From the IMG/VR virus record IMGVR_UViG_3300021185_000016, positions 1 to 30,109 of that record: 30,109 bases of DNA. The stretch is one strand, 5' to 3'. The stretch is from a virus. Below, piece by piece: positions 1 through 20,333 of the stretch. Position 1 is the first letter of the stretch. Each line of letters starts with the position of its first letter. Both the position numbers and the translations under genes were made by a program. The notes beneath the pieces are model-generated. The model worked only from the letters and a program-made list of their open reading frames with translations, was not told the DNA's origin and did no database searches.

Positions 1-3000
1 AGTAGTTCGGTCTATATTATCTGGGTCATCAGGATATTCGTCTACATAATCAGGAATACCATCTTCATCAGAATCAGTAGTATTATCTACATCGGGGTCA
101 GAATCATACTGATCAGGTATACCATCTTCATCAGAATCAGGTAAGTTTGGAGGTATGTTATCTGGATCATCGGGGTATTCGTCTACATAATCAGGTACAC
201 CGTCTCCGTCTGTATCAGTAGTATTATCTACATCGGGGTCAGAATCATACTGATCAGGTATACCATCCCCATCAGTATCAACTTCTTCACCAGTATCAAC
301 TTCTTCACCAGTATCAACATCTTCATCAGTATCAACATCTTCACCAGTATCAACATCTTCACCAGTATCGCCAGTATCGCCAGTATCAGAATCATCCCAA
401 GGAGCTGTTTGACCTTTAAACGGCGTACCGTCTTCGTTATAAACACCGCCTAAAGTTTCTCCGTCTCCTGCAACTAGTTGGAACTTACCAGCTTGAGTTG
501 GATGAGGAACTAAAGTATAAGGCTCATAAGTAGTGCCTGTATCAACTTCTTCACCAGTATCAACTTCTTCACCAGTATCAACATCTTCATCAGTATCAAC
601 ATCTTCATCAGTGTCAACTTCTTCACCAGTATCATCCCAAGGCGCTCTTTGATTTTTAAATGGTGTACCGTCTTCGTTATAAACACCACCTAAAGTTTCG
701 CCGTCTCCTGCAACTAGTTGGAACTTACCAGCTTGAGTTGGATGAGGAACTAAAGTATAAGGCTCATAAGTAGTGCCTGTATCAACTTCTTCACCAGTAT
801 CAACTTCTTCGCCGTCAGTATCGCCGTCAGTATCAAGTGGGTTAAGTTGTTCTCCAGTATCAGGATCAAATACATCAGTAGTGCCATCTGGACTAACGAC
901 TACTACATTACCTTCTTCGTTAGTGTACGTTACATCTCCAGTTTCGGCATCGTACTCAATACCACTTATATCTGGGTTGTTAGGGTCATTGTCTTGGTTG
1001 TCAGCTATACCGTCTCCATCAGTGTCGCCTTCACTACCATAGGTCATTGCCCAGTACGTAGCTAATTGGTCATCTAAACTAGAATCTGATGTGTATTCTC
1101 CATCAGCATTGACCATTAAAGCGGCTACATCTTCAGGGGTATACGTTAACCCTGAATCTCTTAGTATGTCAGTGGCTTCGACGGTACTTGTATATGCATC
1201 GTCATACACTATATCCATTACATTTGCTACTACAGTGGTAGCGCCATTAAATGCGTCATCCATAGCATCTTGCAGTTCTTCAGGAGAAAGAGTTAATCCG
1301 CTATCTAAAACAGCCACTAAAGTACTTAATGCTTGTGGATTTTGGGTTACTGCCGCAAAAACACCCATACCTGCATTAGCTAAGTCGCTAATACCCATCA
1401 TAGTAGTACTTACACCTAGACCCGCTGCCATACCTAAAGCAGTGGCTACCCCGTTTTCTTCAGATATGTTTATAGAGGGGTCTATTAAATGTAGTTCTCC
1501 GTTTACATAATCTGATACAAGGTACTCTTCACCTCCTTCACTAATAGTTTCTCCACCCGCTGCTTTTAACCTATACTTAGCACCAGTTAAAACCTTTTCC
1601 CATAAAGGCAACATTTCGTCGGGTACTTTACCATCAATAAAAAATTTATTTAGTTCCATACCTCCCGCTACCATTAGAGCGGTAGTGGAAATACCCGCCA
1701 CAAATGCAGCATTTGTAGCTAATGTTAATGCGTATTCGGTGGTTTCTTCGTTAAACGAATTTATATAGTCTTGTTTAGCTTGGCCTTTTAACCCCATCTT
1801 ATCGGCTTCTAGACCTAACATTTTTACTTTCGTATCAAAGGCTTGTTCATAAGTACCTGTAAAAGTAGCGCCCGCGCTTTCTCCAACATCAACAGCGGCA
1901 GCTCCCGTCAAACCAAGTTTCGTACTTAGACTACTAATAAAGTCGTCAGTCAAACCTAAGTTTTTTATAGATCTAACGCCTTCTAGTATAGCTTTACTTC
2001 CTAATTTAATTTTTGAACCTGCTACTATGGAAGCAAATTCAGAAGGAAACTCCACTATTATAGTCTGACTAAGAAAAACATTGGGGTCTTCATAGGCTGT
2101 TTTTAGTACATTTTTCATACCATGAAAAAATGCAGGTGCTCCTCTACTTTCGTCTCCCCCTTTATAATCTCCTTTTTTATGGAGAAGGCGGTCTCCTTGC
2201 GGAGTACTTATGTACACGTCTTCTTCGTAGTATTCAATTGGAGTATTAGGGTCGTCTACTGCTTTAGGTAAGTTTGCGGCAAACTCATTGGATCTTTCTA
2301 TAGCGTCGTTATACTCTTGAGTCCTTGCTCCTTCCGCAATAGTAGTCCAGTCTTTAGCGAATTGGCTTATTGCCCCTCCATATTCTTGAGATACTGAGTC
2401 CGCTAGTCCTCCTATAAATTCTGGTACTTGAGCCATACCTTGATTTAACACCGAATATAAATTTTGAGGGTGACTCCATTTTTCTTTATCTAGCTCCCAC
2501 CCTGTAGCTTCTTCTACTGCATCTACTGCTTCTTCTACGTATGTAGCTCCGTCATTCAGGGCGTCTAGGAACCACTGAGGTACATCTATATCTGGACTAT
2601 CTGATACCCATTCTCCGGTAGCGTTAGAAACGTATCCATCAGTTAAATTGTTATTATTTACTTCTTCTGTAAATTGTTCAGGGTCATATGCTGGAGAATC
2701 AGGATTACCCATGTCCTCTAATGTAGGCGCAGAGTTAGGGGTATTAGGATTATTAGGAGTAAGTGTATCTCCTATTGCTTCTGGGTATACCCGCTCATTA
2801 GTTTCTGGGTCTATACGGTAGTATTCGTTAGTCTCTTCGTCTTCTATATACAGATCCCCATCTGAAACATAAGGATCATTTGGGGGTATAGTCCACTCAT
2901 ACTGCCCCGTTTCGTCGTTATATATCTCTCTAGCGACACCATTTACTACGTCCGCAACGGTTACACCTTCTGCAAAAGAAGTGGGGCCAGAAACATATGA

Positions 3001-5580
3001 GTATTCTACTCCTGTAATATTACCATCATCGTCGTAACTAATATTTACTGTAGAGTTACCATCACCAGCTAATTCAAATATAGTTTCTCCTATAGCCGCT
3101 CCTACATCTAGATCTGCTACAGAAACACCTTCAGATTCGGCTATATCTTTATATCTGTCTACTATGGCTTTTCTTTCGGCAGGAGATAATGCAGTTACAT
3201 CTATTCCTGTCAGTCCTGCTACCGTGTCAAGCAAGTTACTCGCTTGCGCATTGTTTTGTGCTGTTAAACTTGTTTGGTTTGTTGGTAAGTTGTTATACAG
3301 TCCTTGGCTTAGGTAGTGCGCGTTGGCCTCTTCTACGGTAATACCGTTTTGTTCGGCGTAGAACTCGGCATCAAAATCAGGGTTTAAGTTTGCGACAGTA
3401 GCTTCATTAATACCTGCTAATGCTTCAGCAAACCCAGACTCGTAGTCGTCACCTCCATCTGATAATTCATCGTATGTACTTTGGTATAAGTCCGCAGCAG
3501 TATTGTATGCGTCAGTAGCGTTGTTATACTCTTCTGTGCCAGCATCTATTCTAGGGATGTAGTCGTTGTTTAATAGGTCTGTAAACTCGGTTTCTGCTGT
3601 ATCGTAGGCGGCTTTAGCTTCTTTGTAAGCAGCTATCTGTTCTGCGGTTGCATTACCATAACCGCCACCCATATCTTTCCATATATCATTAGCTGCATTC
3701 GCAAGTTCTGTTAAGTTATCAGCACCCTCAGAAATTAGCTGGTTTACTTCGTTTACTTCCGTTGCCGCATCTGCGCGTCTTTGTGCAGCCTCATCAGCTA
3801 CTATAGCTTGCTCAGTTAACGTATCGTACTTACCGCTTACTCTATCCCAAAACTCTGCAAAATCTTCTTGGAAAGTACCGTTATTTAGTGACTGCCTAAT
3901 AGTTCTTTCTAGTTGCGCTGCTAGGCTGTTTAAGAACGCATCAGAAACATCTCCCCCTAACATAGCCGCGTTTAACGACGTTTGTAGGGAGGTAGCAATC
4001 ATTTCTATACCACCAGAAGGTAAACTTTCTCCTACAAAACCTTTTAATGTCTCTGTAGTAATTACCGCAGAAGATATTATCTGTGCCATACGAGTTTCGT
4101 TAATATCGCCTGTAGCCAACTGAGAAGATATAGCTTCTTGTATCATACTTCTAGCTATCTTACCTATTGACTGAGGTGCTGACCCTCCTATTACTTTCGT
4201 ACCGCCTTTACCATCAGAGCCATATACTCTAGTATCTTCGGTAAAAGTACCTATTTCTTCTAGGTCGTCTAGTGCCCCATCAGTTAGCTCGTTTATTTTT
4301 CCAAGTACTCGACCTACGCCAACTTGCACGCCGCCAGTTAAGAAAGCCTCTAGAGGGTCTTGGTCTGTTATTAATGCGGCAATAACATTTTTAGTTCCCG
4401 CGGTCACTGCTTCCGCTATAAATCCATCTGAAGCCGCTCCAACAGCGGCGGCTGCCTCTACACCGAAACTTTCGGCCCACTCTCCAAACTTTTGCCCTAC
4501 AACATCATATCCACCAGCCATAGCAAACCAATCACTTGCGTGCATAGTCATACCTGAAGCGGCTTTAATAAGTGTAAGGGCTTGAGTCCCGCCGGGAATT
4601 ATTGCGGCAAGTACATTTACTACGGGGTTGGATAGAAATGTTTCCCAAGTACTTGCTTCAGGAGGGTCTTCGACCCACATCATTACATATTCGCCTGCCC
4701 CTGCATTACCATCACTAGTATCTATAAATCTACCAGTTTTTCCCATAGCCTCGTACATGGCTCGGTCTTCATCAGAAAACCCTTGGAATAAATTAGTGTT
4801 ACCCCCAGTATTAGGTAGTTTCATGTACAGACGATTGTTATCGTAGTCGTAGGGATAATCTACTTCAAAAGGTTCTGCAAGTTCATGGAAAGGACGAGCT
4901 TGAGACTTTCTTACCATCTCTATAAAAGGCTTGCCTAGCAATTGGTCTCTAGCCCATCCTTCGTAGTTTGTACCTGCTAAAGCACCACGGTTGGGGTCAA
5001 AATCATTAAATGCCTGTTGCTTTAACTTGGCTAAAGCGTCTTCAAAACCTTCGTCGGTTCGTGTTTGTGCGTACCAAAGGGCTACATCAAAGTCTTCATT
5101 TTCTTGGCGCCATTGGTCATACTCTGAGGCGTCTTCTTCAGTTACGTTACTCCAATTAAGATCTGTAGCCCACGTTGAATCACTACCTTGCCAACCGCTA
5201 GTATCTTCATCAGCATCATTATCAGCTACAGTCCTATCGCCTTCTTGTACCCAGCTCATGGTCGTACTATCAAAAGTCCAGCCATCTTCGACTGCTTCTT
5301 GTATATTTGGGTACCCTAATGACTCCCACCAAAATCCTTGCGGATCATCTCCTTTTCCGTTGTTACCTAGGTCAGGGTCAGAGTATAGAGACGGATCATC
5401 TCCTTTTCCGTTGTTACCTAGGTCAGGGTCAGAGTATAGAGACGGATCATCTCCTTTAATTCTATTTTCTTCTTTATCACGCAGATCTTTTATTTGCTTA
5501 TCTCGCTGGGCATCTTTCGCTCTAAGAGCAGCCGCTACTCCGCCACCTTGCCTAGGGTTATATAACTCTCTTCTAGCCAT
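1..5580 (-). CDS. Giant virion-type protein with TSP3-like calcium-binding repeats (3' end outside window)
   Basis: An uninterrupted frame begins at ATG 5580 and is still open at base 1, so at least 1860 residues. The N-terminus is basic and helical (MARRELYNPRQGGG), followed by a 17-residue unit starting GDDPSLYSDPD present twice plus a partial third copy (residues about 41-80). The middle is Ala/Asn/Glu-rich and mostly helical, with Gly/Ala-rich hydrophobic stretches such as that near residues 1280-1315. Near residue 1517 there is a DTDGDGIADNQ motif, then an 80-residue unit in tandem, runs of DTGEEV/DTDEDV hexapeptides (about 1584-1767), and a block of DTDGDGIPDQYDSDPD-type repeats (about 1767-1860). 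DxDxDG-x-D repeats are the signature of thrombospondin type 3 calcium-binding repeats. Size and position after the nozzle and fibre-type genes fit an internal/ejection protein or a large appendage; the catalytic role, if any, is not visible. It lies 11 bases after the preceding gene, with a weak AAGGG ribosome site. Confidence 0.85.
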   Translation of the reverse strand, partial: MARRELYNPRQGGGVAAALRAKDAQRDKQIKDLRDKEENRIKGDDPSLYSDPDLGNNGKGDDPSLYSDPDLGNNGKGDDPQGFWWESLGYPNIQEAVEDGWTFDSTTMSWVQEGDRTVADNDADEDTSGWQGSDSTWATDLNWSNVTEEDASEYDQWRQENEDFDVALWYAQTRTDEGFEDALAKLKQQAFNDFDPNRGALAGTNYEGWARDQLLGKPFIEMVRKSQARPFHELAEPFEVDYPYDYDNNRLYMKLPNTGGNTNLFQGFSDEDRAMYEAMGKTGRFIDTSDGNAGAGEYVMMWVEDPPEASTWETFLSNPVVNVLAAIIPGGTQALTLIKAASGMTMHASDWFAMAGGYDVVGQKFGEWAESFGVEAAAAVGAASDGFIAEAVTAGTKNVIAALITDQDPLEAFLTGGVQVGVGRVLGKINELTDGALDDLEEIGTFTEDTRVYGSDGKGGTKVIGGSAPQSIGKIARSMIQEAISSQLATGDINETRMAQIISSAVITTETLKGFVGESLPSGGIEMIATSLQTSLNAAMLGGDVSDAFLNSLAAQLERTIRQSLNNGTFQEDFAEFWDRVSGKYDTLTEQAIVADEAAQRRADAATEVNEVNQLISEGADNLTELANAANDIWKDMGGGYGNATAEQIAAYKEAKAAYDTAETEFTDLLNNDYIPRIDAGTEEYNNATDAYNTAADLYQSTYDELSDGGDDYESGFAEALAGINEATVANLNPDFDAEFYAEQNGITVEEANAHYLSQGLYNNLPTNQTSLTAQNNAQASNLLDTVAGLTGIDVTALSPAERKAIVDRYKDIAESEGVSVADLDVGAAIGETIFELAGDGNSTVNISYDDDGNITGVEYSYVSGPTSFAEGVTVADVVNGVAREIYNDETGQYEWTIPPNDPYVSDGDLYIEDEETNEYYRIDPETNERVYPEAIGDTLTPNNPNTPNSAPTLEDMGNPDSPAYDPEQFTEEVNNNNLTDGYVSNATGEWVSDSPDIDVPQWFLDALNDGATYVEEAVDAVEEATGWELDKEKWSHPQNLYSVLNQGMAQVPEFIGGLADSVSQEYGGAISQFAKDWTTIAEGARTQEYNDAIERSNEFAANLPKAVDDPNTPIEYYEEDVYISTPQGDRLLHKKGDYKGGDESRGAPAFFHGMKNVLKTAYEDPNVFLSQTIIVEFPSEFASIVAGSKIKLGSKAILEGVRSIKNLGLTDDFISSLSTKLGLTGAAAVDVGESAGATFTGTYEQAFDTKVKMLGLEADKMGLKGQAKQDYINSFNEETTEYALTLATNAAFVAGISTTALMVAGGMELNKFFIDGKVPDEMLPLWEKVLTGAKYRLKAAGGETISEGGEEYLVSDYVNGELHLIDPSINISEENGVATALGMAAGLGVSTTMMGISDLANAGMGVFAAVTQNPQALSTLVAVLDSGLTLSPEELQDAMDDAFNGATTVVANVMDIVYDDAYTSTVEATDILRDSGLTYTPEDVAALMVNADGEYTSDSSLDDQLATYWAMTYGSEGDTDGDGIADNQDNDPNNPDISGIEYDAETGDVTYTNEEGNVVVVSPDGTTDVFDPDTGEQLNPLDTDGDTDGEEVDTGEEVDTGTTYEPYTLVPHPTQAGKFQLVAGDGETLGGVYNEDGTPFKNQRAPWDDTGEEVDTDEDVDTDEDVDTGEEVDTGEEVDTGTTYEPYTLVPHPTQAGKFQLVAGDGETLGGVYNEDGTPFKGQTAPWDDSDTGDTGDTGEDVDTGEDVDTDEDVDTGEEVDTGEEVDTDGDGIPDQYDSDPDVDNTTDTDGDGVPDYVDEYPDDPDNIPPNLPDSDEDGIPDQYDSDPDVDNTTDSDEDGIPDYVDEYPDDPDNIDRTT
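17..282 (-). repeat. 141-bp tandem repeat encoding TSP3-like units
   Basis: Bases 17-139 and 158-280 are close copies with 141-base spacing. Each encodes DxDxDG-x-PDQYDSDPDVDN and a following DGxPDYVDEYPDDPDN segment. The array continues off the left edge, so the copy number is unknown. Confidence 0.85.
281..372 (-). repeat. 18-bp repeats encoding DTGEEV/DTDEDV
   Basis: The unit 'accagtatcaacttcttc' and close variants repeat without spacing here and again at 541-630 and 781-830. The product is a purely acidic, Thr/Gly-containing low-complexity linker. Confidence 0.8.
391..815 (-). repeat. 240-bp tandem duplication in the giant gene
   Basis: The segment from 391 repeats at 631 with few differences (both contain 'taaagtttcnccgtctcctg' and 'aactagttggaacttaccag'-type text). 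It encodes an 80-residue unit that ends with DTGEEV hexapeptides. The near identity implies a recent duplication. Confidence 0.85.
5341..5457 (-). repeat. 51-bp tandem repeat near the start of the giant gene
   Basis: Bases 5341-5391 and 5392-5442 are identical, followed by a 15-base partial third copy. The 17-residue unit begins GDDPSLYSDPDLGNNGK. Confidence 0.9.
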
Positions 5581-5591
5581 TATTTAAGCCC

Positions 5592-6497
5592 TTAATTCTT
5601 TATGAGGATGCCTTGGAAAGACGCCCCCACTTCTACGTTGGTAGTATCGGAAAGTGCTCGGCACTCTATGTCTGTTTTTTCTTCTATCTTTAGTGGGTAC
5701 GAGAGTGGTAATACTAGCAGGGCGCTTTGCATAGTTTGTATTATTCGCGTGCGGAACGTGTTAGAGCCAAAGTCACGGCTAACAAACTTTGCGGTAACAT
5801 TTTTATTTGCTAGTGATATTGCAGAGGTAAAAGTTACATCGTCTAGGTATAAAGAGTATCCGGCAGGGACTGTATAAACAGTAATTTGAGATTGGTTGTC
5901 TCCCTGTATAACGTGCGCATACGTAACGCCTGTAGGTACTCCAGAACTTACTCCGCTATTAGCTACGTATATGGCTCCAGCAGCAGTGCCTCCACTACCA
6001 GAAGTAACGACAAATATTCTGTTAACACGTAACCATGAGCTAGCGTCACCTACCTGCACCTGCGTCTGACCGTTCATGTTAACGGTTACGCTCTTGGCGT
6101 TGTAACTACCATCTACACCCTCTACCGTTACAGTATTAGCGCCCGTACCCCCATTAGAATCGGCAGTGCTGGAGCTACTTATGTACACTGTAGCGGCAGA
6201 TGTTAGGTATGGATAGTTACCCCCAGTGCCCCATATAGTCTCTTCAGTACCGTTAATGTCGGGATTAAACCCAAACTTGTATACGGTACTAGCACCTGCA
6301 ATCTGGCCTTTCGATACTTGCAATTCATACGGTTCTTGGACTGCCATAGCATTTCTCAGTGCGTTGTCTAACTGGTTAAAGTAGATACGCAGTACTCTAT
6401 TAAACTCTTCAAACGATTGCTGATCGTACACCTGCGGAGGGTACGGCAGCGCGGGAGCGCGAAAGGGTACGTCGTACCTAGTATTGTCTACAGCCAT
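5592..6497 (-). CDS. Putative virion structural protein, 301 aa
   Basis: The start ATG shares one base with the stop of the nozzle-like gene (TAATG). Residues 1-60 form a Pro-rich then helical segment (APALPYPPQVYD, FEEFNRVLRIYFNQLD) that looks like a virion-attachment or oligomerisation part. The remaining 240 residues are Thr/Ser/Gly/Val-rich beta structure, with VSKGQIAGASTVYKFGF and a terminal segment NVEVGASFQGILIKN. This type of protein is common beside nozzle genes in marine short-tailed phages. A tail or neck structural role is inferred from composition and from its place between nozzle and giant protein. No enzymatic motif is seen. Confidence 0.75.
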   Translation of the reverse strand: MAVDNTRYDVPFRAPALPYPPQVYDQQSFEEFNRVLRIYFNQLDNALRNAMAVQEPYELQVSKGQIAGASTVYKFGFNPDINGTEETIWGTGGNYPYLTSAATVYISSSSTADSNGGTGANTVTVEGVDGSYNAKSVTVNMNGQTQVQVGDASSWLRVNRIFVVTSGSGGTAAGAIYVANSGVSSGVPTGVTYAHVIQGDNQSQITVYTVPAGYSLYLDDVTFTSAISLANKNVTAKFVSRDFGSNTFRTRIIQTMQSALLVLPLSYPLKIEEKTDIECRALSDTTNVEVGASFQGILIKN

Positions 6498-8332
6498 TAT
6501 CGTCTGCCATCAGAACGCATATCTATTCGGGGAGAACCTAACTGCCAAGTTACTCCAACATCACTAGATTCTACCTTTATAGCAAGCTGTCGTCCACGCA
6601 CACGAGTAAATATCTGTCCCGTAAACTCTTCTACTGGTAACGTAGCAGTGCGTGTTACTCCTGCGCTATTAGAACCTCCTACAGAAGCGGGGCTATTATA
6701 CCCTGATCCTGAGTTTTGTAGGGGTAATAGTGTCATAGTAGCACTAGGTGAGCCTACTTCAGAACCATCAAATGTTATATCCGGTAGTATACGCCATATA
6801 AACGCGAACTGATGCCCATCTTCTAAATCAAATTGCGCTGATGATACATATGCAGGAATAGCTACTGTGGTAGCAGTTTCGTTGTCATCAACACCCTGCT
6901 CATGGTTAACTAAATTATTACTATATGTAGCAGCTAGTGGGTAGTTTCTTAATCCCGAATCAAGCCATGCGGTACGGTTCATAGTTCCGTAGTACCACAC
7001 CTGCTCTAAATAATTGTATACGACGTATCTGTCTGACACGTTAGAGTCTGAGGAACAATACCACCACCATATCTCATGGTATGACTCGTTTGTACCTGCA
7101 AACACTTGCTCATACTGTTCTTCATTAAAGTCATTAAACACAAACTTACGTAAGTTACACTGTAAAGGTTGGGTGCGCCCATCATACATATAGAACTTAT
7201 CTCTACCCATCCAGTAGGCTACACCATTAGCGTAAGCTACAGCGTTTTGAGAGGCTATAGATATGTTTTCTCCCACTAACTGAGCATTCCATACAGCAGG
7301 AGCGCCTACATACTGTAGCGCATATAACGCTGCATCTGTCCATACTAGTACTTCTTGGCGTGACTGTTTAGCTGCAACAATCTGAGTACCATTAGATAGT
7401 ATTAAATCACCTGACTGATTAGTAGCCGCAGGTAGCCAGTTGGTAGCGTCTTCTTGATCTGACCAACGTATGAGCATAGGGTTTATAGTCGCAGATGCAA
7501 GCTCGTTACACCCAAAACAAAACACAAACCTATTAATATCAGACACTAAAATAAGTTTTTGTGACGTAGGTACTTCTGTACCTGTAAGAGCTATTGCTCT
7601 AGTGTTTAGCCCGTTTGTGGCGTCCCATATGTATATACCCCCATCTCTAGGCCCAAAGATAAGGTCTTCACCAAAGTTAGCTTGGCTCCATATACGTATA
7701 GAGTCAGTGGATGTAGCGCCAATACCCCACGTACCAGAACCCCAACTACTTGCTCCCCAACCTACTAAGGGTACAACAAACGCAGGGCCGACATTGATTT
7801 GGTATGCAGCAGTTACGGTGCCTCCACCTGTAGCACTTGAACTAGCATTAGAACCTGCATCAATTGTATACACATTAGCAGTAGTAGTTTCAGTTAGCTG
7901 ATACTCGGCATTTAGGGTAAGACCACCTACGGCACTTGCACCGCTAAAAGTAACAAAGTCCCCATCCGAGTACCCGCCGTTAGCATCAGTAACTTCTACT
8001 ATGGGAGATCCACTAGTAGTCTCAAACGGGTTAGTCAGGGTTACAGTAGCACGTATAGGTGTGATGTCATTGTAAGCACCGCCGTTTTCTATATAAAACT
8101 TTAGATTAGTACCTACACCAATTAAATTTTGACTACCAAGAGTTACCCAGTTCCATAAAGATCGGCATACGCCTAAGAACGTAGTAGCAGATATACGTTG
8201 CCACCCACCTATCTTTTCCGGCGTACCTTGGCGAAACCGTATTTTGTCGCAGTCATACCAACCACCCTCGCTAGTATATCGCGTGTTCTCACGGTTTATT
8301 CCTGCTTTAAGTGTTAGTTTTTTAAGTGGCAT
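6497..8332 (-). CDS. Tail nozzle-like protein (tail tubular protein B / P22 gp10-like)
   Basis: 611 residues, beta-rich throughout. The N-terminus (GGWYDCDKIRFRQGTPEKIGGWQRI) is the opening seen in nozzle or 'DNA stabilisation' proteins of short-tailed phages: a strand pair announcing a propeller-like body. The body has repeated aromatic blade-like segments (GVAYWMGRDKFYMYDG; YEQVWYYGTMNRTAW). The C-terminus is FTRVRGRQLAIKVESSDVGV. Residues 191-203 hold W-x4-W-x4-W with Gly after each Trp (GWGASSWGSGTWG), the same signature as at the start of the 22-residue-repeat protein at 15797-16771. Length and position before the lysis genes fit a nozzle. Family assignment is from overall character rather than a diagnostic residue. 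Confidence 0.7.
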   Translation of the reverse strand: MPLKKLTLKAGINRENTRYTSEGGWYDCDKIRFRQGTPEKIGGWQRISATTFLGVCRSLWNWVTLGSQNLIGVGTNLKFYIENGGAYNDITPIRATVTLTNPFETTSGSPIVEVTDANGGYSDGDFVTFSGASAVGGLTLNAEYQLTETTTANVYTIDAGSNASSSATGGGTVTAAYQINVGPAFVVPLVGWGASSWGSGTWGIGATSTDSIRIWSQANFGEDLIFGPRDGGIYIWDATNGLNTRAIALTGTEVPTSQKLILVSDINRFVFCFGCNELASATINPMLIRWSDQEDATNWLPAATNQSGDLILSNGTQIVAAKQSRQEVLVWTDAALYALQYVGAPAVWNAQLVGENISIASQNAVAYANGVAYWMGRDKFYMYDGRTQPLQCNLRKFVFNDFNEEQYEQVFAGTNESYHEIWWWYCSSDSNVSDRYVVYNYLEQVWYYGTMNRTAWLDSGLRNYPLAATYSNNLVNHEQGVDDNETATTVAIPAYVSSAQFDLEDGHQFAFIWRILPDITFDGSEVGSPSATMTLLPLQNSGSGYNSPASVGGSNSAGVTRTATLPVEEFTGQIFTRVRGRQLAIKVESSDVGVTWQLGSPRIDMRSDGRR

Positions 8333-10767: not shown

Positions 10768-13700
10768 TTATCCTTCTAAGGTTTCTATTCTTGCGGTTAA
10801 TGATTCAATCAATGCTTGTTGCTCTTGGATGGCTTTGACTAGGATAGGTACAAACTTGCTGTACTGTAGACCCATCTGCTTGCCGTCTGACCCATAACTA
10901 ACAGTAAGGTTTTTCTTATCTCCTACTTTGTAACCTGCGGCAATCTCAAGGGCTTCAACTTCTTGTGCCTTGAAACCAATGTCCAACCAATCTTCTTTGT
11001 GGGTTCCATCTGGAGTCTGTGCATTTAGGTCATAATCATCAGCACTCTTATCACCATACTTAGAACGCTTGTCCCACTTATAAGTAACAGGCTTTAGGTC
11101 TTTAACAAAGTCCAAACCAAGGTCTAGGGCTGTAAAGTCTGTTTTGTCTCTTGCATCAGAGGATACTGTCCAATCTACCTGTATGTAAGCATTGGTAATA
11201 TTATCATCACCCAAAACCATTACGTTACTTTGTGTAGTCCAGTTACCGCCGGGACTTCCTGTCCGTCCTGCATCTGCTCCAAGGAATAAATTATTATTTC
11301 CACTTGTTAATGCAAAACCCGCTGTTTGTCCGACACAGGTGTTTTTACCTCCTGTACAATCCTTTAATACATAAGAACCTACTGCTGTATTGTCATCACC
11401 ACAATTCACTGATAGAGCTTGGTATCCAACAGCTACGCATCCTGCGCCATCATCAGTACCATCACCTGCATACTTGCCCACGAATGTGTTGTTTGAGCCT
11501 GTGGTTAAATTTTCACCTGCGCTTTTACCAAAGGCTGTATTACTTGTGCCGCTAGTATTGTTAAAGAGAGCGTTGTGACCTACTGCGGTGTTGTCACTTG
11601 CGTTGTTTGTGTACAGCGCCTGAAAACCTATACCTACATTGCTTGCGCCTGTGGTGTTTGTTATTAAAGCACTTGTACCTACGGCTACGTTGTTTGACGC
11701 TGTTGTGTTTGATGCTAAAGAAGCCGTACCAACAGCAGTATTATGAGCACCTGTAGTGTTAAGATTTAAGGCTTGATGCCCTAACGCTGTGTTATCACTT
11801 GCCGTTGTATTTAGGAGTAGGGCTTGTCTACCTAACGCTGTGTTACCAGAGCCAGTGGTGTTTGCGGCTAAAGCACTCTGACCAACGGCTACGTTGTTAG
11901 AGGCTGTTGTGTTTGCGCCTAAAGCACTTGTACCAACAGCAATATTAAACTTACCAGTAGTGTTTGCATCCATAGCCTCTCCACCGATTGCTACGTTCTG
12001 CTGTCCTGTGGTGGTTGCTCCTAAAGTGTTATAGCCTATCCCTACGTTGTACGACGCAGTAGTGTTTGATTGCAGTACGTAGGCTCCAATACCAACATTT
12101 TGTGCGCCTGTGGTGTTTGCGGTTAAAGCCGCGTAACCGAGAGCAGTGTTGTTGGCCGCTGTTGTGTTTGCGTCTAAAGCGATAGTTCCAACAGCAACAT
12201 TCTGTGCGCCTGTGGTGTTTGCGATTAAAGCCGCGTAACCGAGAGCAGTGTTGTTGGCCGCTGTTGTGTTTGCGAGTAAAGCATAAGAACCTAAAGCAAC
12301 ATTGTTTGCGCCTGTTGTGTTTAACTGCATTGCATCAAGACCCACCGCAGTATTATAATTTGCTGTAGTGTTGTTCTGTAAAGCACTTGTACCCACTGAA
12401 GTATTACCAGTGCCTGTTGTGTTGCTAGTAAAACCGTTTCCACCAACTACAGTATTATATTGCCCTGTTGTGTTCGCATCCCCAGCTAAAGAACCAACTG
12501 CGGTGTTGTAGTCGCCTGTGGTGTTTGCGACTAAAGCGGTATAACCCACTGCTGTGTTGTTATTTGCTGTGGTGTTTACTCGTAAAGCACTTGTACCTAA
12601 TGCAGTATTATTAGATGCTGTAGTATTTAATAACAAAGCAGCCTCACCCACAGCAACATTATCTGCTCCTGTTGTATTAGCACCTAAAGCACTAGAACCT
12701 ACGGCTGTATTTCCATCTGCTGTAGTGTTTGCATCTAGGGCTAAAGCACCTATAGCTGTATTATCATCGCCTGTAGTGTTTGCGCTTAAAGACCGAGAAC
12801 CTACTGCTGTGTTGTTAGACCCTGTATTTGCGGCTAAAGCATTCTTACCCATAGCTACAAGCCCAGTTCCAGTCGTATTAGCTGATAAAGAAGCTGAACC
12901 TACTGCTGTGTTTTCTGAGGCTGTTGTTTGTGAAGTACCTGCCCTTTCACCGATAAAAGTATTATAGGCTCCTGTAGTAAGTGCTGTACCTGCTTGATAA
13001 CCAAAAGCATCGTTTCTTGTACCTGTAGTGTTTGCGACTAAAGCACTCTTACCCACTGCTGTGTTGTTGGAAGCTGTGGTATTAGCATATAAAGCACTCT
13101 CGCCTACGGCTACGTTGTTACTTCCTGTAGTGTTTAGACCTAGAGCATCTTGACCAAGGGCGGCATTTAATGTGCCTGTGGTATTTGTAGTTAAAGCAGT
13201 TTTACCGACTGCGGCATTACCTCCACCTGTGGTGTTTGCTCCTAAAGCGCTAGCACCGACTGCGGTGTTGTTAGATGCTGTTGTGTTAGCGTCTAAAGCA
13301 TCGTGCCCCACAGCCACATTACTTTCGCCAGTTAAGTTGTTTTGTAAGGCATCTCGTCCTAAAGCAGTGTTTCCTGCGCCAGTAGTATTAAGTTTTAAGG
13401 CTTCTCTACCTAAAGCTGTGTTACTATCTGATGTTTGGGCCGTGGTTAAAGCCTCCATTCCAATAGCCACGTTAAAACTGCCAGTGGTTAAAGCATCTCC
13501 TGCTTGATAACCTACCGCTACGTTACCTGTACCTGTAGTGTTTGCTCCTAAAGCGCTTGTACCAACGGCTGTGTTGTTAGAGGCTGTTGTGTTAGCTTCT
13601 AAGGCTTTGTAACCCATCGCTACGTTATTAGCACCTGTCGTGTTTTCTTCTAAAGCACTAGAACCAAATGCCGTATTTAACTGGCCTGTGGTGTTTCTAT

Positions 13701-15786
13701 ACATAGAAAAATAACCCACTGAAGTGTTGTCATTTCCTGTCGTATTAGTTTGTAAGGCTGTCCTACCAAGAGCAGTATTGCGCGTTCCAGTAGTGTTGTT
13801 GCCTAAAGAACTCTGTCCTACAGCGGTGTTACTAGAACCTGTGGTGTTCGCAGATAAAGAAAAATAACCTACTGCAGTATTGTCAGAAGCTGTTGTGTTA
13901 GCGTCTAGTGAGGCATAACCAACGGCTACATTACCTGCGCCTGTAGTGTTTGCGCCTAATGCTACAGTACCAACTGCTGTATTATAAGACGCTGTTGTAT
14001 TAGCATCTAAAGCACCTTGACCAACTGCTACGTTTGAAGCACCTGTGGTATTAACACCAAGTGCGGCATAACCTAAAGCAACATTAGTATTGCCTGTAGT
14101 AATTGCATCACCTGCTAGTCCACCAATGAGGGTGTTTTGAATGCCTGTGGTTACTAACCGCCCTGCATTCATACCAACGGCTGTGTTGTAAGAATTTGTG
14201 GCTGAAGTGAAGTTTTGACTAGCAAGGGCTTCTTGTCCTATAGCTACGTTTCTAGCTCCTAACGTATCAGAGGTTAAAGCACCATAACCGACAGCTACGT
14301 TATAATCAGAGTCAGTTAAAGCATCTCCTGCGTTACCACCTATAAGAGTGTTTTGAACACCTGTGGTTACTGCTTGACCTGCTTCAAAACCAACAGCAGT
14401 ATTAAAATTATCAACATCAGAGTTTTGTACTTTAAGTGCGCTTACTCCTATAGCTACATTCTTTCGTCCTGTATCTTCTCCACCTAAAGCAAAATAACCC
14501 AGAGCAACATTATTAAAGCCTGTTGTTAGGGCATCACCTGCTAGACCACCAATAAGAGTGTTTTGAACACCTGTGGTTACTGCGGCTCCTGCACTACGAC
14601 CCACCGCTACGTTATACGTGCCTGTGGAGTTATTAGCCAAGGCTCCATAACCAAAAGCAGAGTTATTGGCGGCAGTGTTGAGTTTTAATGCAGTGTGTCC
14701 TACTGCGGTATTCTGTGAAGAAGTTGCTAAGGTTTTTAATGCTTCAAAACCAACAGCTACATTGTTATCACCCGTAGTAATCGCAGTACCTGCTTCATCG
14801 CCCACGACGGTATTATAATTACCACCGTTTGCAATGCTGTTACCTGCGTTGACACCTGCAATAAAGTTAGATGTTCCTGCTGTGGTGGAATGAAGTCCTG
14901 CACTTGTCACACTAGAATTAAACGTAGCCGCACCTGCCGCTGACATATCAAGTCGCAACGCTGTGATACCCACACTTCCATCAACGCCTTCAAATTTCAT
15001 ATCTGCATCGGGTCGGGCAGAATAGATTTGTACATCAGAACCTGTATTGCGTATTTTAAAAAACTCAGTTCCTGCATCTTTAAAGAAAACACTACCACCA
15101 TCAGCATCAAGATTAATGTTACCTGCAACATCTATGGTTAGATCGCCAGAAGCATTGGTAATGTTGTCGCCAGCACTCATTACGATGTCTGTACCGCCAG
15201 TGGTATTACCCTGAGCAAGTACTTCAGCAAGGGTGTCGAAAGAGCCTACTTGAGCATCTACGTACGCCTTAATAGACTGCTGTGTAGCTAGAGATGTGGC
15301 GCTGTTTGACGCCATGTTGTCTTCGTCAAGTACCGCTGTAACAGTAGTGCTAGTACCTAACTGTAAAGAAGTAGTGCTAGTTACCGCTTCAATAACATTA
15401 GTCCCGTCACAGAACAGGAACATAGTACGTCCATTAGGGACAAGGATTCCGGTACCGCTAGCGGTTTTTAAAGTTACGTTCTGTGCTGCGGCGTTCTTAG
15501 CTATGTATATCTTAGACAAGGCTGGGCATACAACTGTACCCGCACCGGACAACTGAGTCCCTGTGTCTGTAAACTCTAGCATTGCACACCTAGATTCGGA
15601 GGTAGTACCGTTAGCAGTTGTAAGCGTATGTGAGTTAGTAGACCACGAGTTAATAACCGCACGGCCTGCGATTGCTTGTTCTACCATAGAAGTAATATTA
15701 TCGTTTACTACATCTCCCCAAGTACCACTAAGTTCACCCTGTACTGGGAGCGCGAGTTTTAATATCGAAGTGTATTGCGTTGTCAT
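10768..15786 (-). CDS. Giant tail fibre: SGTWG N-terminus, ~86 YadA-like 14-residue repeats, S74 intramolecular chaperone
   Basis: 1672 residues. Residues 1-140 carry the virion-attachment type N-terminus found in many marine phage tail proteins (LALPVQGELSGTWGDVVNDN, then a beta domain). Residues about 140-305 are a linker with a short helix and Gly/Asp-rich beta strands. Residues about 309-1512 are about 86 copies of a 14-residue repeat of the type N-T-A-V-G-x-x-A-L-x-A-N-T-T, resembling YadA head (Hep_Hag) repeats, which form trimeric left-handed beta rolls. Residues 1543-1672 are a Peptidase S74/endosialidase chaperone domain starting SDARDKTDF and ending in a coiled coil (IQEQQALIESLTARIETLEG). 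This domain helps trimer folding and usually cuts itself off just before the conserved Ser (here Ser1543). Role: host binding. GAGG lies upstream of the ATG. Confidence 0.9.
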   Translation of the reverse strand: MTTQYTSILKLALPVQGELSGTWGDVVNDNITSMVEQAIAGRAVINSWSTNSHTLTTANGTTSESRCAMLEFTDTGTQLSGAGTVVCPALSKIYIAKNAAAQNVTLKTASGTGILVPNGRTMFLFCDGTNVIEAVTSTTSLQLGTSTTVTAVLDEDNMASNSATSLATQQSIKAYVDAQVGSFDTLAEVLAQGNTTGGTDIVMSAGDNITNASGDLTIDVAGNINLDADGGSVFFKDAGTEFFKIRNTGSDVQIYSARPDADMKFEGVDGSVGITALRLDMSAAGAATFNSSVTSAGLHSTTAGTSNFIAGVNAGNSIANGGNYNTVVGDEAGTAITTGDNNVAVGFEALKTLATSSQNTAVGHTALKLNTAANNSAFGYGALANNSTGTYNVAVGRSAGAAVTTGVQNTLIGGLAGDALTTGFNNVALGYFALGGEDTGRKNVAIGVSALKVQNSDVDNFNTAVGFEAGQAVTTGVQNTLIGGNAGDALTDSDYNVAVGYGALTSDTLGARNVAIGQEALASQNFTSATNSYNTAVGMNAGRLVTTGIQNTLIGGLAGDAITTGNTNVALGYAALGVNTTGASNVAVGQGALDANTTASYNTAVGTVALGANTTGAGNVAVGYASLDANTTASDNTAVGYFSLSANTTGSSNTAVGQSSLGNNTTGTRNTALGRTALQTNTTGNDNTSVGYFSMYRNTTGQLNTAFGSSALEENTTGANNVAMGYKALEANTTASNNTAVGTSALGANTTGTGNVAVGYQAGDALTTGSFNVAIGMEALTTAQTSDSNTALGREALKLNTTGAGNTALGRDALQNNLTGESNVAVGHDALDANTTASNNTAVGASALGANTTGGGNAAVGKTALTTNTTGTLNAALGQDALGLNTTGSNNVAVGESALYANTTASNNTAVGKSALVANTTGTRNDAFGYQAGTALTTGAYNTFIGERAGTSQTTASENTAVGSASLSANTTGTGLVAMGKNALAANTGSNNTAVGSRSLSANTTGDDNTAIGALALDANTTADGNTAVGSSALGANTTGADNVAVGEAALLLNTTASNNTALGTSALRVNTTANNNTAVGYTALVANTTGDYNTAVGSLAGDANTTGQYNTVVGGNGFTSNTTGTGNTSVGTSALQNNTTANYNTAVGLDAMQLNTTGANNVALGSYALLANTTAANNTALGYAALIANTTGAQNVAVGTIALDANTTAANNTALGYAALTANTTGAQNVGIGAYVLQSNTTASYNVGIGYNTLGATTTGQQNVAIGGEAMDANTTGKFNIAVGTSALGANTTASNNVAVGQSALAANTTGSGNTALGRQALLLNTTASDNTALGHQALNLNTTGAHNTAVGTASLASNTTASNNVAVGTSALITNTTGASNVGIGFQALYTNNASDNTAVGHNALFNNTSGTSNTAFGKSAGENLTTGSNNTFVGKYAGDGTDDGAGCVAVGYQALSVNCGDDNTAVGSYVLKDCTGGKNTCVGQTAGFALTSGNNNLFLGADAGRTGSPGGNWTTQSNVMVLGDDNITNAYIQVDWTVSSDARDKTDFTALDLGLDFVKDLKPVTYKWDKRSKYGDKSADDYDLNAQTPDGTHKEDWLDIGFKAQEVEALEIAAGYKVGDKKNLTVSYGSDGKQMGLQYSKFVPILVKAIQEQQALIESLTARIETLEG
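11250..14860 (-). repeat. About 86 tandem 42-bp repeats inside the giant fibre gene
   Basis: On the plus strand the unit is recognisable by recurring 'gcctgtggtgtttgcg' and 'gctgttgtgtt' segments every 42 bases. Each encodes 14 residues (N-T-A-V-G-x-x-A-L-x-A-N-T-T). Neighbouring units often alternate TTG and TTA endings (NTTG/NTTA), a possible 84-base higher-order unit. The count is estimated from the length of the region. Confidence 0.9.
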
Positions 15787-15796
15787 TTGTAAAACC

Positions 15797-16771
15797 TCAT
15801 GCGGCTATTCTGTCCCAGTTAGGGTCTTGTGTGTTTGTTGTTTCACTCCATGTTGGAGTCTGACTATCATTTATGACCTGCCAGTTGGGGTCTTGGTCGT
15901 CATCAACTTCTCCCCATATATGTACTATTCCTATATATCCTACAGCAGATACTCCAATTAGGGAAACGTCTGCTTCTGCGTTGGTTGTAACGGCGCCAAC
16001 TTCGCCTTCGGCTTCTACACCTGTTATATGTACGGTTATACCAAATACTACATTAACCGCGCCTATATCTCCATCAGCTTCTACACCGGTTACTGTTACG
16101 TCAGCTTCAGCATCTACTGTTAAAGTGCCTACAACTCCGTCAGCTTCTACACCTGTTACTGCTACATCAGCTTCAGCATCTACTGTTAGTGTTCCTACAG
16201 CTCCGTCAGCTTCTACACCGGTTACAGAGGTGTTTGATTCAGCATCTACTGTTAAAGTGCCTACAGCTCCGTCAGCTTCTACACCTGTTACTGCTACATC
16301 AGCTTCGGCATCTACTGTTAGAGTACCTACAGCTCCGTCAGCTTCTACACCGGTTACAGGAGCGTTTGCTTCAGCATCTACTGTTAGAGTACCTACAGCT
16401 CCGTCAGCTTCTACACCTGTTACTGTTAGGTTTGCTATACCTGTAGCTGTTAATGTTCCTACAGCTCCGTCAGCTTCTACACCTGTTAATGCTATATCCG
16501 CTTCGGCATCTATGGTAACTGTACCGACTGCGGCAGCTCCAGCTACGCTGGTAACCATAACATCTGATTCAGCGTCAATAGTAGCTGTGCCAATACCTCC
16601 AGCAGCGTCTACACCTGTTACAGAAGTATTTGCTTCCGCGTCAGGTAATACAGTACCAATAACTCCTTCTGCGGCAACACCATCTACTGATACTATAGTT
16701 AAGTCTGTGCCCCAAGCCGTTTGGCCCCAAGCAGCACTTCCCCAACCTACGTACTCTACTGAAGATGGCAT
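15797..16771 (-). CDS. Repeat protein with twelve 22-residue units (probable tail appendage)
   Basis: 324 residues. The start MPSSVEYVGWGSAAWGQTAW has Trp10, Trp15 and Trp20, each followed by Gly, the same W-x4-W-x4-W signature as the nozzle-like protein. Residues about 25-285 are about twelve copies of a 22-residue beta unit (VTGVEADGAVGTLTVDAEAD); the inner copies are nearly identical at the DNA level (66 bp). The C-terminus has three QDPNW/QTPTW/QDPNW units spaced 11 residues apart, before IAA. AAGG precedes the ATG and the fibre gene follows ten bases on. It is probably a tail or neck appendage. A fibre adaptor joining the nozzle and the large fibre is plausible from the shared Trp-Gly signature, but not shown. 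Confidence 0.75.
   Translation of the reverse strand: MPSSVEYVGWGSAAWGQTAWGTDLTIVSVDGVAAEGVIGTVLPDAEANTSVTGVDAAGGIGTATIDAESDVMVTSVAGAAAVGTVTIDAEADIALTGVEADGAVGTLTATGIANLTVTGVEADGAVGTLTVDAEANAPVTGVEADGAVGTLTVDAEADVAVTGVEADGAVGTLTVDAESNTSVTGVEADGAVGTLTVDAEADVAVTGVEADGVVGTLTVDAEADVTVTGVEADGDIGAVNVVFGITVHITGVEAEGEVGAVTTNAEADVSLIGVSAVGYIGIVHIWGEVDDDQDPNWQVINDSQTPTWSETTNTQDPNWDRIAA
15990..16710 (-). repeat. Tandem 66-bp repeats (22 residues) in the appendage gene
   Basis: The repeated unit contains 'cttctacacctgttac' and 'cagcatctactgttaaag' every 66 bases. About twelve protein units can be aligned; the central six or seven are nearly identical in DNA, the outer ones have diverged. Confidence 0.85.
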
Positions 16772-18419: not shown

Positions 18420-19106
18420 TTATACGTATCCTATACGCGGAGCAAACCTAGCTGAGGTTTTTTCTCTATCTTCTCCTGCGGCCATCTCAAATTGTTCGTC
18501 ATACACAGCCTTTAGCATAGGTACTCTATCTACCATTTCGGGTAACTTCATAGCTATATAGTAAGCTAGTCCAGCTACTAGACAAGGAAAAAACCTAAAG
18601 TTCATATCCGCGGTGTCTACACCCGTACCAGCGTCTTGTATTCTGCGCATACGCCAATAATACAATACATAATCGTTGTTATCAGGTATAGGCCATATGT
18701 TTACTTTAGGAGCGTCGCGTAAACGCTCAATATACAGTTGTATAGGTCTACCTTGTGTTAACTTATTAGGTATAGATGCGTAGGTACTTACACTAATACG
18801 ACTTATAGTAAGGTCACTCTGCGTAGCTGTATTTCCACTACCTGTACGTATCTGATGCTCTAGTAAATCAATAGTATCTGCGGGTAGATCATACTGAGTC
18901 TGGCCTTTAACTAAATTAATAGTACCTTCATCAATAGTCCACATGTTAATGCCGCGGTTCTGCCACTCTATAGTAAGCAAATTCATAGACCGTCTGGCAG
19001 TGCGGAGATCATACCCAGAGCGCATTTCTCGTCCCGCACGTTCAAACGCTTCTTCAGCGATCTCTGTGAAGTCCATATTAAACGCTGTAGTACCTGATGT
19101 AGCCAT
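18420..19106 (-). CDS. Head-tail connector / tail tubular protein A-like
   Basis: 228 residues. The helical N-terminus (FTEIAEEAFERAGREMRSGY, RRSMNLLTIEWQNRGINMW) is followed by beta strands with QYDLPADTIDLLE and SKINIWPIPD-like NIWPIPDNNDYVLYYWRMRR, and C-terminal helices (LVAGLAYYIAMKLPEM, LKAVYDEQFEMAAGEDREK). The 'A.. AL.R.. W...G..LW(T)' and 'WPIPDN..Y.L.Y' pattern is typical of P22 gp4/T7 gp11-like connector proteins. It would contact the portal or adaptor ring. It starts in a TAATG overlap with the gene before it. It resembles the 17230-17859 protein only in general layout, so the phage may use two stacked adaptor rings. Confidence 0.7.
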   Translation of the reverse strand: MATSGTTAFNMDFTEIAEEAFERAGREMRSGYDLRTARRSMNLLTIEWQNRGINMWTIDEGTINLVKGQTQYDLPADTIDLLEHQIRTGSGNTATQSDLTISRISVSTYASIPNKLTQGRPIQLYIERLRDAPKVNIWPIPDNNDYVLYYWRMRRIQDAGTGVDTADMNFRFFPCLVAGLAYYIAMKLPEMVDRVPMLKAVYDEQFEMAAGEDREKTSARFAPRIGYV

Positions 19107-19408
19107 TATTTCTTTCTCCGCTTAGTAGCTGATACTCGTCTAGGTTTACCTGCTGGTTGTCCTAGTCTTTTCTTTTCGGCTACCTTCTTTTTCTTCTCGG
19201 CGCTAGACATTTCGCCAGAGGTCTTAGGAGTCTTCTCAGATACCCGTTTGCTAGGGCGGCAGTAAGGTGTTCCTCTACCATCTCCCTTCTTTCTACCACA
19301 AGCCTTACCGGTTTTAACGTCTTTCCAGTCTTCTTGGAACCATCGTTTTAAAGAAGCACCTTTCTCTGTCTTACGTATTTTACCGCCAGACTTGTAGTAC
19401 GTCCGCAT
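19106..19408 (-). CDS. Small very basic protein, MRTYYKSGG type
   Basis: 100 residues, more than a third Lys/Arg. N-terminus MRTYYKSGGKIRKTEKGASL, middle SLKRWFQEDWKDVKTGKACG and RKKGDGRGTPYCRPSKR, C-terminal Lys/Arg tail (GKPRRVSATKRRKK). The core 'KRW..E.WKD..TGKACGRK...GxPYCRPSKRVS..TP' occurs in many marine phage small proteins. Extreme charge and abundance suggest binding to DNA inside or during packaging, or to a charged capsid surface; that is inference. It starts in a TAATG overlap with the 54-residue gene and ends in TAATG with the connector gene. Confidence 0.8.
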   Translation of the reverse strand: MRTYYKSGGKIRKTEKGASLKRWFQEDWKDVKTGKACGRKKGDGRGTPYCRPSKRVSEKTPKTSGEMSSAEKKKKVAEKKRLGQPAGKPRRVSATKRRKK

Positions 19409-19572
19409 TACTTACCAGCCTTTTTCTTCCGGCATTTAGCAATGGCTCCCGACGCATAAGCAGACGGGAACACCTTATATTGCTTCTTTACTTTGGTGTA
19501 GCAGGCGTCTTTTACTGTACCGCCTTTCTTATACCCACAACCACAGCTACTTTTTTTGTAATAGCGCCGCAC
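19408..19572 (-). CDS. 54-residue basic cysteine-containing protein, MRRYYKKSS type
   Basis: GTG start at 19572 to TAA 19408. The GTG shares a base with the TAG of the gene before it (TAGTG) and the TAA shares a base with the next ATG (TAATG), so the frame fits exactly. The product starts MRRYYKKSSCGCGYKKGG and goes on to DACYTKVKKQYKVFPSAYAS and a terminal CRKKKAGK. The MRxYYKxx opening and K-K-G-G are shared with the genes at 19408 and 20333. Four cysteines could bind a metal. The 'TKVKKQYKVFPSAYASGAIAKC' segment recalls the small 'KVKxxYKVFPSAYASGA(I/L)xKC' proteins often seen in marine phages. Function unknown. Confidence 0.75.
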   Translation of the reverse strand: MRRYYKKSSCGCGYKKGGTVKDACYTKVKKQYKVFPSAYASGAIAKCRKKKAGK

Positions 19573-20021
19573 TATGCACCTTTCATCTTGACCATTTTAC
19601 AAACTCTACCACCACGAGCCATACCGCAGCCACGAACCTTACCGCCTTTCTTCATACGTGGCATAGCGCCACCACTGCCTTGATCCATACCCATTGGAGC
19701 ACGTTTCTTTTTCTTAGGCTGTGGGCCACCTGTCATAGGTTTTGTAGGGCCAGATTCCGGTACATCCGCTTCGGTAATCATTTTCCGTGCCATGCCACCT
19801 CTGTTCATTTTTTTCACTTCTTTCTCCTTATTTTGAGCTTTTAAAATCTCTACTTGCTTGGCAGCCTTCGCGTCGCTTAGGGGCATGTTGCCTGCGCCTT
19901 GAACAGATTTAGGGGAGCTATTTCGTAATTTACTTTCGTCTACCGACTTGTTTTCTTTTTTTCTTTCAGTCGCTAACATCTTCATGTAATCACTTTCTGA
20001 CATATTCTTTGGTTTTCTCAC
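19572..20021 (-). CDS. Basic Met/Gly-rich small protein with GG-K repeats
   Basis: 149 residues from GTG 20021, with AGGAG eight bases upstream. The N-terminal half is a Lys/Glu/Ser-rich helix (MSESDYMKMLATERKKENKS, MPLSDAKAAKQVEILKAQNK). The C-terminal half is Met/Gly/Lys-rich with repeated GG motifs: MNRGGMARKM, GSGGAMPRMKKGGKVRGCGM, ARGGRVCKMVKMKGA. The repeated x-K-G-G-K/R-V element links it to the neighbouring basic genes. Gly/Lys tails of this kind could bind nucleic acid. It ends in TAGTG overlap with the 54-residue gene. No family function known. Confidence 0.72.
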   Translation of the reverse strand: MRKPKNMSESDYMKMLATERKKENKSVDESKLRNSSPKSVQGAGNMPLSDAKAAKQVEILKAQNKEKEVKKMNRGGMARKMITEADVPESGPTKPMTGGPQPKKKKRAPMGMDQGSGGAMPRMKKGGKVRGCGMARGGRVCKMVKMKGA

Positions 20022-20030
20022 GTTATTCTC

Positions 20031-20333
20031 CTAACATTTCCATCGTTTCCTAGCTTGCCGTAACCTTGAATTAGGATCTTTAGCCGCTTTAGGAAACTTC
20101 TTCATTTGTCCGGCAGAACGAGCGCAATAGGACTTACGCCTACTCGCCCGCTTACCAGTTGGTTTATCCTCGGTAACCGCGGTCTTTAATTTAGAACCGG
20201 GATTATTTTTTCTGTACTTAGCTACGCCTTTAGCGGTCATACCCGCGCCAGATTTAGTGGGGCGTTTATCCCCACTTTTAATGGACATACCTTTCATGCC
20301 CACTCCACCGCCTCTTTTATAGTACTTACGCAT
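20031..20333 (-). CDS. Small very basic protein, MRKYYKRGG type
   Basis: 100 residues: MRKYYKRGGGVGMKGMSIKS, then DKRPTKSGAGMTAKGVAKYR and SKLKTAVTEDKPTGKRASRR, then KSYCARSAGQMKKFPKAAKD and a terminal RLRQARKRWKC. The 'RRKSYCARSxGQMKxFPKAAKDPNSRLRQARKRWxC' end is a very widespread small phage protein in marine viromes. Function is unknown; the charge points to nucleic acid or capsid binding. It starts in TAATG overlap with the upstream gene. Confidence 0.82.
   Translation of the reverse strand: MRKYYKRGGGVGMKGMSIKSGDKRPTKSGAGMTAKGVAKYRKNNPGSKLKTAVTEDKPTGKRASRRKSYCARSAGQMKKFPKAAKDPNSRLRQARKRWKC

Follow-up and report, generated by a model that had tools for sequence, protein, structure and literature searches.

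Thrombospondin type 3-like calcium loops in a giant cysteine-free phage protein, a probable ejection protein

Repeats of the thrombospondin type 3 (TSP3) kind near the visible end of a giant viral protein raise the question of what kind of protein carries them and whether calcium matters to it. The window analysed here is the entire 30,109-base virus record IMGVR_UViG_3300021185_000016. Its late operon lies on the minus strand and encodes the terminase large subunit, portal, GroES-like protein and major capsid protein in its first part, followed by an S74-type fibre, holin, M15 endolysin, P22-gp10-like hub and 301-aa protein. The giant ORF comes last and exits the window; its frame (5580..1) stays open up to the window edge, giving 1,860 residues without a cysteine.

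Gene layout and repeats

1..5580, minus: gene of the giant cysteine-free protein; 1,860 codons lie in the window and the 3' end beyond it
1..279, minus: TSP3 array of four Ca-loop units (residues 1768, 1789, 1815, 1836) in two 47-residue tandem copies
280..369, minus: DTGEDV/DTDEDV/DTGEEV hexads, residues 1738-1767
391..543, minus: ~51-residue 'GETLGG' module, copy 2, residues 1680-1730
544..630, minus: acidic hexads, residues 1651-1679
631..783, minus: ~51-residue 'GETLGG' module, copy 1, residues 1600-1650
967..1032, minus: junction TSP3 unit right behind the core, DTDGDGIADNQD, present in many homologues
1057..4422, minus: family core, residues 387-1508, predicted mostly helical in a low-confidence model
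1663..1725, minus: hydrophobic segment, residues 1286-1306
4564..4623, minus: hydrophobic segment, residues 320-339
5341..5457, minus: N-terminal 17-residue repeats GDDPSLYSDPDLGNNGK, 2.3 copies
5592..6497, minus: 301-aa protein (phrog_8198), separating the hub gene from the giant gene, at the position of the P22 needle gene
6497..8332, minus: P22-gp10-like 'phage stabilization'/hub protein (phrog_3287)

The contig end falls within a 141-bp tandem repeat, which is likely why the assembly stopped there, and an exact-match search found no overlapping contig that would extend it. For the window's other genes, cultured relatives derive from fresh water as well as from the sea; an ocean origin is not established.

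Several other genes of the window are also repetitive or of unusual composition. The 1,672-aa fibre (10768-15786, minus) has many NTAVG..AL.ANTTG repeats and a terminal S74 endosialidase-type chaperone domain, and the 324-aa protein beside it (15797-16771, minus), overlapped by a long antisense ORF, consists of 22-residue repeats (VTGVEADGAVGTLTVDAEADVA) in a 66-bp tandem array. Three successive small, very basic Lys/Arg-rich proteins (100, 149 and 100 aa) are encoded at 19106-20333 (minus), and the portal C-terminus (24603-24900, minus) is a long repetitive Gln/Lys-rich helix-like stretch, possibly a P22-like portal barrel.

The TSP3-type repeats, acidic hexapeptides and two 80-residue copies reported by the initial annotation are all present in positions 1-1040 (minus). 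The final 351 residues hold five TSP3-type units, eleven acidic hexads (DTGEEV, DTDEDV or DTGEDV) and the two tandem 80-residue copies. The D-x-D-x-D-G units begin at residues 1519, 1768, 1789, 1815 and 1836, four in tandem and one separate, the second tandem pair being a 141-bp copy of the first. Each 80-residue copy, a 240-bp tandem period, is made up of the ~51-residue module (DTGTTYEP...APWDD), near-identical in both, plus hexads. A sixth D.D.DG, at residue 1585, falls in a DTDGDTDGEE run and does not count as a TSP3 unit. Shuffling the giant protein 20,000 times at the same composition gave a mean of 0.47 D.D.DG motifs and a maximum of 5, against the six observed; the longer TSP3 pattern occurred twice versus 0.00045 in the shuffles.

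The five units carry the DxDxDGxxDxxD calcium-ligand pattern that TSP3 (PF02412) shows in tandem. A profile comparison, the check proposed in the initial annotation, recovered this likeness as a Pfam TSP_3 score of 18.8 bits at 967-1032, below the 25-bit gathering cut-off, which was reached among the homologues by L039 only (25.1); an hmmscan of the whole giant protein against Pfam returned no match. In a phmmer search of the PDB the four-unit array matched a solved TSP3-containing protein, the OmpA-family chain 5wtl_A, across the tandem units (E 1.7e-8). Unlike the TSP3 units of animals and of many bacteria, these contain no cysteines.

A family with variable acidic spacers

The giant gene is a member of an unnamed family whose proteins measure 1.7-2.6 kaa and occur in uncultured phage contigs only. 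Relatives sharing the core and C-terminus come solely from viral contigs, and none was confirmed in two scans of 84,980 genomes. Among cultured or annotated phages, tblastn found no homologue except a weak N-terminal match in MW202545, which hhalign identifies as a distant homologue of the family N-terminus (E 4.6e-15). In full-length relatives a variable N-terminus precedes a core of ~1,100 aa, which in many cases is followed by a TSP3-like junction unit; then come the variable spacer, ~34-aa repeats predicted to be helical, and a conserved end that carries the loop QLQYDVNNDGVIDINDQ and closes with AKGG..TD.L.RLIGE. In a second subfamily (L021, L031, L035, L040, L049, L054 and L055) the core is weakly related to that of the window and the C-terminus is shared.

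The GETLGG module also occurs at the N-terminus of homologues L004, L014, L018 and L020. Between the window and L004 its codon identity among identical residues is 91%, against ~30-70% for most core segments; therefore the module was probably moved by recent recombination. Two loci are more loosely connected to the family. L019 (3461-7735) is related through its N-terminal part only (residues ~155-362), the remainder being collagen-like GIDGVDGVDG with many LADATGTSIEDLL repeats instead. In MW202545 (11947-15108) the distant homologue and its neighbour are extremely cysteine-rich, with 36 and 33 cysteines and runs such as CCSCCCSCCC, the reverse of what the rest of the family shows.

The initial annotation had expected that a distal binding domain or enzyme might follow beyond the window. 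Complete homologues end instead in a C-terminus that is conserved, predicted to be mostly helical and equipped with a dockerin-like calcium loop; no enzyme or receptor-binding domain is recognisable there. The missing part of the window's gene would be expected to run on through further TSP3 units and helical repeats to an end of the form QLQYDVNNDG...RLIGE. These C-termini are 38-55% identical to that of L004 and have many invariant columns, the invariance of the loop partly reflecting how loci were found, since the scans selected in part on it. The loop QYDVNNDGVIDINDQ resembles dockerin type I (PF00404; Pfam E 4e-4 for L031, PDB 2y3n E 2e-4). A model of the C-terminus (pLDDT 65.6) had no match at E <= 0.001 in fold searches of PDB and BFVD.

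The spacer is a TSP3 array in L016, L021, L031, L035/L038, L040, L055 and the window, and elsewhere a run of 71 PVD motifs (L004), TPEP (L026), EADRLAAE (L022/L027/L029) or DEGDVDE (L025/L032/L033). Its net charge is negative in all 21 spacers measured. Acidic spacers of several kinds, the TSP3 array among them, are interchangeable in the family. Since about a third of the complete homologues have no TSP3-type unit, the family can do without TSP3-mediated calcium binding, and calcium looks like one solution among the spacers rather than the rule.

It is likely, judging from the loop sequences, that the array binds Ca2+. The nearest array, the eight units of L016, differs from that of the window at 19 of 88 residues, and none of the 19 differences falls on the 20 ligand positions (1, 3, 5, 9 and 12 of each unit; p 0.004). 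In 43 loop units from the family, a set that takes in C-terminal and GETL-module loops as well, positions 1, 3 and 5 are D/N throughout and positions 9 and 12 in 86-88%; the search pattern demanded the first three, so independent support comes from positions 9 and 12 only. Alternatively, the acidic repeats may be a mere disordered, charge-rich spacer whose TSP3 likeness has no calcium function. This is unlikely, though it is the strongest of the alternatives considered here: it would fit the sub-threshold Pfam score and the replacement of the array in homologues by net negative (PVD)n, TPEP, DEGDVDE or EADRLAAE runs. It does not fit the conservation of ligand positions while adjacent ones change, the retention of a calcium-type loop at the core junction of many members and in the C-terminus, or the recurrence of TSP3 arrays in both subfamilies.

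The dependence on sea-water calcium that the initial annotation had raised is speculation, and it is weakened because sister proteins have (PVD)n, TPEP or charged EADRLAAE spacers without calcium loops. An effect of calcium on ejection may still exist, since the place of the gene and its lack of cysteine suggest a protein that is internal and ejected.

Calcium-loop motifs seem to be common among phage proteins: at least 119 viral contig stretches in IMG/VR (contigs L061-L140) encode D-x-D-G-D-G-[IV]-P-D loops, many of them single and in KKKPDADGDGVPDWADKKPG context, with some arrays (L129, L135). A literature search found no paper on TSP3 in phage.

Gene position, cysteine content and probable role

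The giant gene probably encodes an ejection protein of a short-tailed phage of the P22 type, carried inside the virion and injected. Seen directly in the sequences are a constant location after the gp10-like hub and before three more large genes, a nearly complete lack of cysteine across this set of four, a core and C-terminus that are conserved and linked by a variable spacer of strong acidity, and, as the spacer of this lineage, TSP3-type calcium loops whose ligand positions are conserved. The core model (pLDDT 47.8, low confidence) gives this reading no fold support.

Across about 30 contigs the order M15-hub-small-[family]-513-650-giant was found in every locus as far as the flanks reach, the small gene of L056 being the one exception. 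This is the arrangement of a podophage ejection gene cluster downstream of hub and needle genes. Ejection genes are clustered and mosaic, and are often paired by size and synteny rather than by sequence (PMC8954989). In MW202545 the phage operon that holds the distant homologue ends in an SLT transglycosylase, and the family's giant neighbour is related to DarB-like/lytic-transglycosylase giants. In L023 (11472-17918) that neighbour has at least 2,149 aa, a HESAH metalloprotease-like motif and distant DarB-like similarity.

The family has one cysteine in 34,098 aa and the genes downstream none in 41,802 aa, versus 96 in 13,914 aa for the upstream genes. In this it is like the large ejection proteins of T7 (gp15, gp16), P22 (gp7, gp20, gp16) and N4 (gp50, gp51, gp52), all with no cysteine; T7 gp14 has one. 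In ORFs of 400 aa or longer, taken from nine named phages, cysteine is absent from 17 of 20 within ejection cassettes versus 3 of 44 outside (p 8e-10), where the outside set includes the window's other ORFs and several cassettes are themselves assigned by synteny. In N4-like phages, cysteine absence in the injected polymerase (vRNAP) has been linked to passage through tail and periplasm (PMC3715699, PMC3915230). Counting against the ejection reading, scaffolds, some fibres and the N4 coat are also cysteine-free, and the cysteine-rich distant homologue in MW202545 is an exception to the family pattern. In the cassettes of L023 (7925-17918), T7, P22, N4, DSL-LC04, HTVC023P, HTVC027P and MinM2 most of the large proteins have no cysteine whatever, unlike neighbouring virion proteins. 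A cysteine census could give a simple general sequence test for ejection proteins, which are otherwise recognised mainly by gene position.

The place of the gene beside tail genes could also suit a tail fibre or external adhesin, in which calcium-stiffened TSP3 repeats hold a distal receptor-binding tip off the virion; the protein is large and repetitive, and TSP3 and coiled-coil-like repeats are known in surface adhesins. Adhesin tips usually vary, whereas this C-terminus is conserved, no fibre, receptor-binding or chaperone domain was found in the giant protein, the S74-chaperone fibre is a separate gene, and the position and the cysteine-free four-gene cassette match ejection genes. An adhesin is therefore improbable, and the role in host adhesion proposed at first is not borne out. 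A tape-measure-like or tail-lumen structural protein that stays outside the cell is similarly improbable. The DSL-LC04 gene at the same place is annotated as tail tape measure, long helices are predicted, and tape-measure proteins could be cysteine-poor too; on the other hand, the structural genes here are of the podophage type, which has no length-determined tail tube, the protein varies from 1.7 to 2.6 kaa with spacer swaps, and hhalign finds no similarity to the DSL-LC04 protein. Although TSP3 and dockerin modules are typical of bacterial surface proteins, a cellular protein or host contamination is practically excluded by the terminase, portal, capsid, hub, holin and fibre genes on the same strand, which bear out the phage context first assumed, by the lack of a core or C-terminus homologue in the genomes scanned, and by the conserved phage synteny.

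As an ejection protein, the giant protein would be packed in the capsid, leave unfolded or extended via the narrow tail, and help to form a conduit across the envelope. The TSP3 array would be a slender, charged spacer, stiffening as it takes up Ca2+ where that ion is plentiful and remaining flexible in the cytoplasm, the Ca-poor site of the protein's synthesis. A bolder scheme makes the array a calcium-gated folding switch, disordered in the cytoplasm and folding on entry into the Ca-rich periplasm, so pulling the injected protein or locking it in place. RTX repeats, which fold on secretion, offer a parallel; such a switch is very improbable.

Comparison with known systems

The window array shares tandem DxDxDGxxDxxD loops and Pro-containing spacers with Pfam TSP_3 (PF02412) and the TSP3 region of 5wtl. 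It differs from them in having no cysteines, units of 21-26 residues, DPDVDNTT/EYPDDPDN spacers and a place in a phage protein. Dockerin type I has paired calcium loops with flanking helices, whereas the family C-terminus has a single conserved loop and does not belong to that class.

In DSL-LC04 (the 'tail tape measure protein') and the pelagiphage HTVC023P (gp79-83), mostly cysteine-free genes occupy the same syntenic place after the hub; they are much shorter, have no TSP3, and those tested gave no significant profile similarity. Roseobacter phage CRP-901 is another isolate with this cassette. The order of the family locus parallels that of P22 (10-26-14-7-20-16), in which the ejection genes come last. 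Neither sequence nor profile searches linked the family to an annotated ejection protein, and the family proteins are larger than most of those of T7, P22 and N4; TSP3 units and a dockerin-like loop are not described for ejection proteins in the literature found. With T7 gp14/15/16, P22 gp7/20/16 and N4 gp50-52 the family shares large clustered genes behind a tail-hub gene, near-total cysteine absence, long predicted helices, mosaicism, fast evolution and variable size. Most likely, then, this is an ejection protein whose acidic spacer is of the Ca-binding type. With the carrier of such a repeat probably being injected into the host, the repeat offers a way to test how giant proteins get through a narrow tail and fold again.
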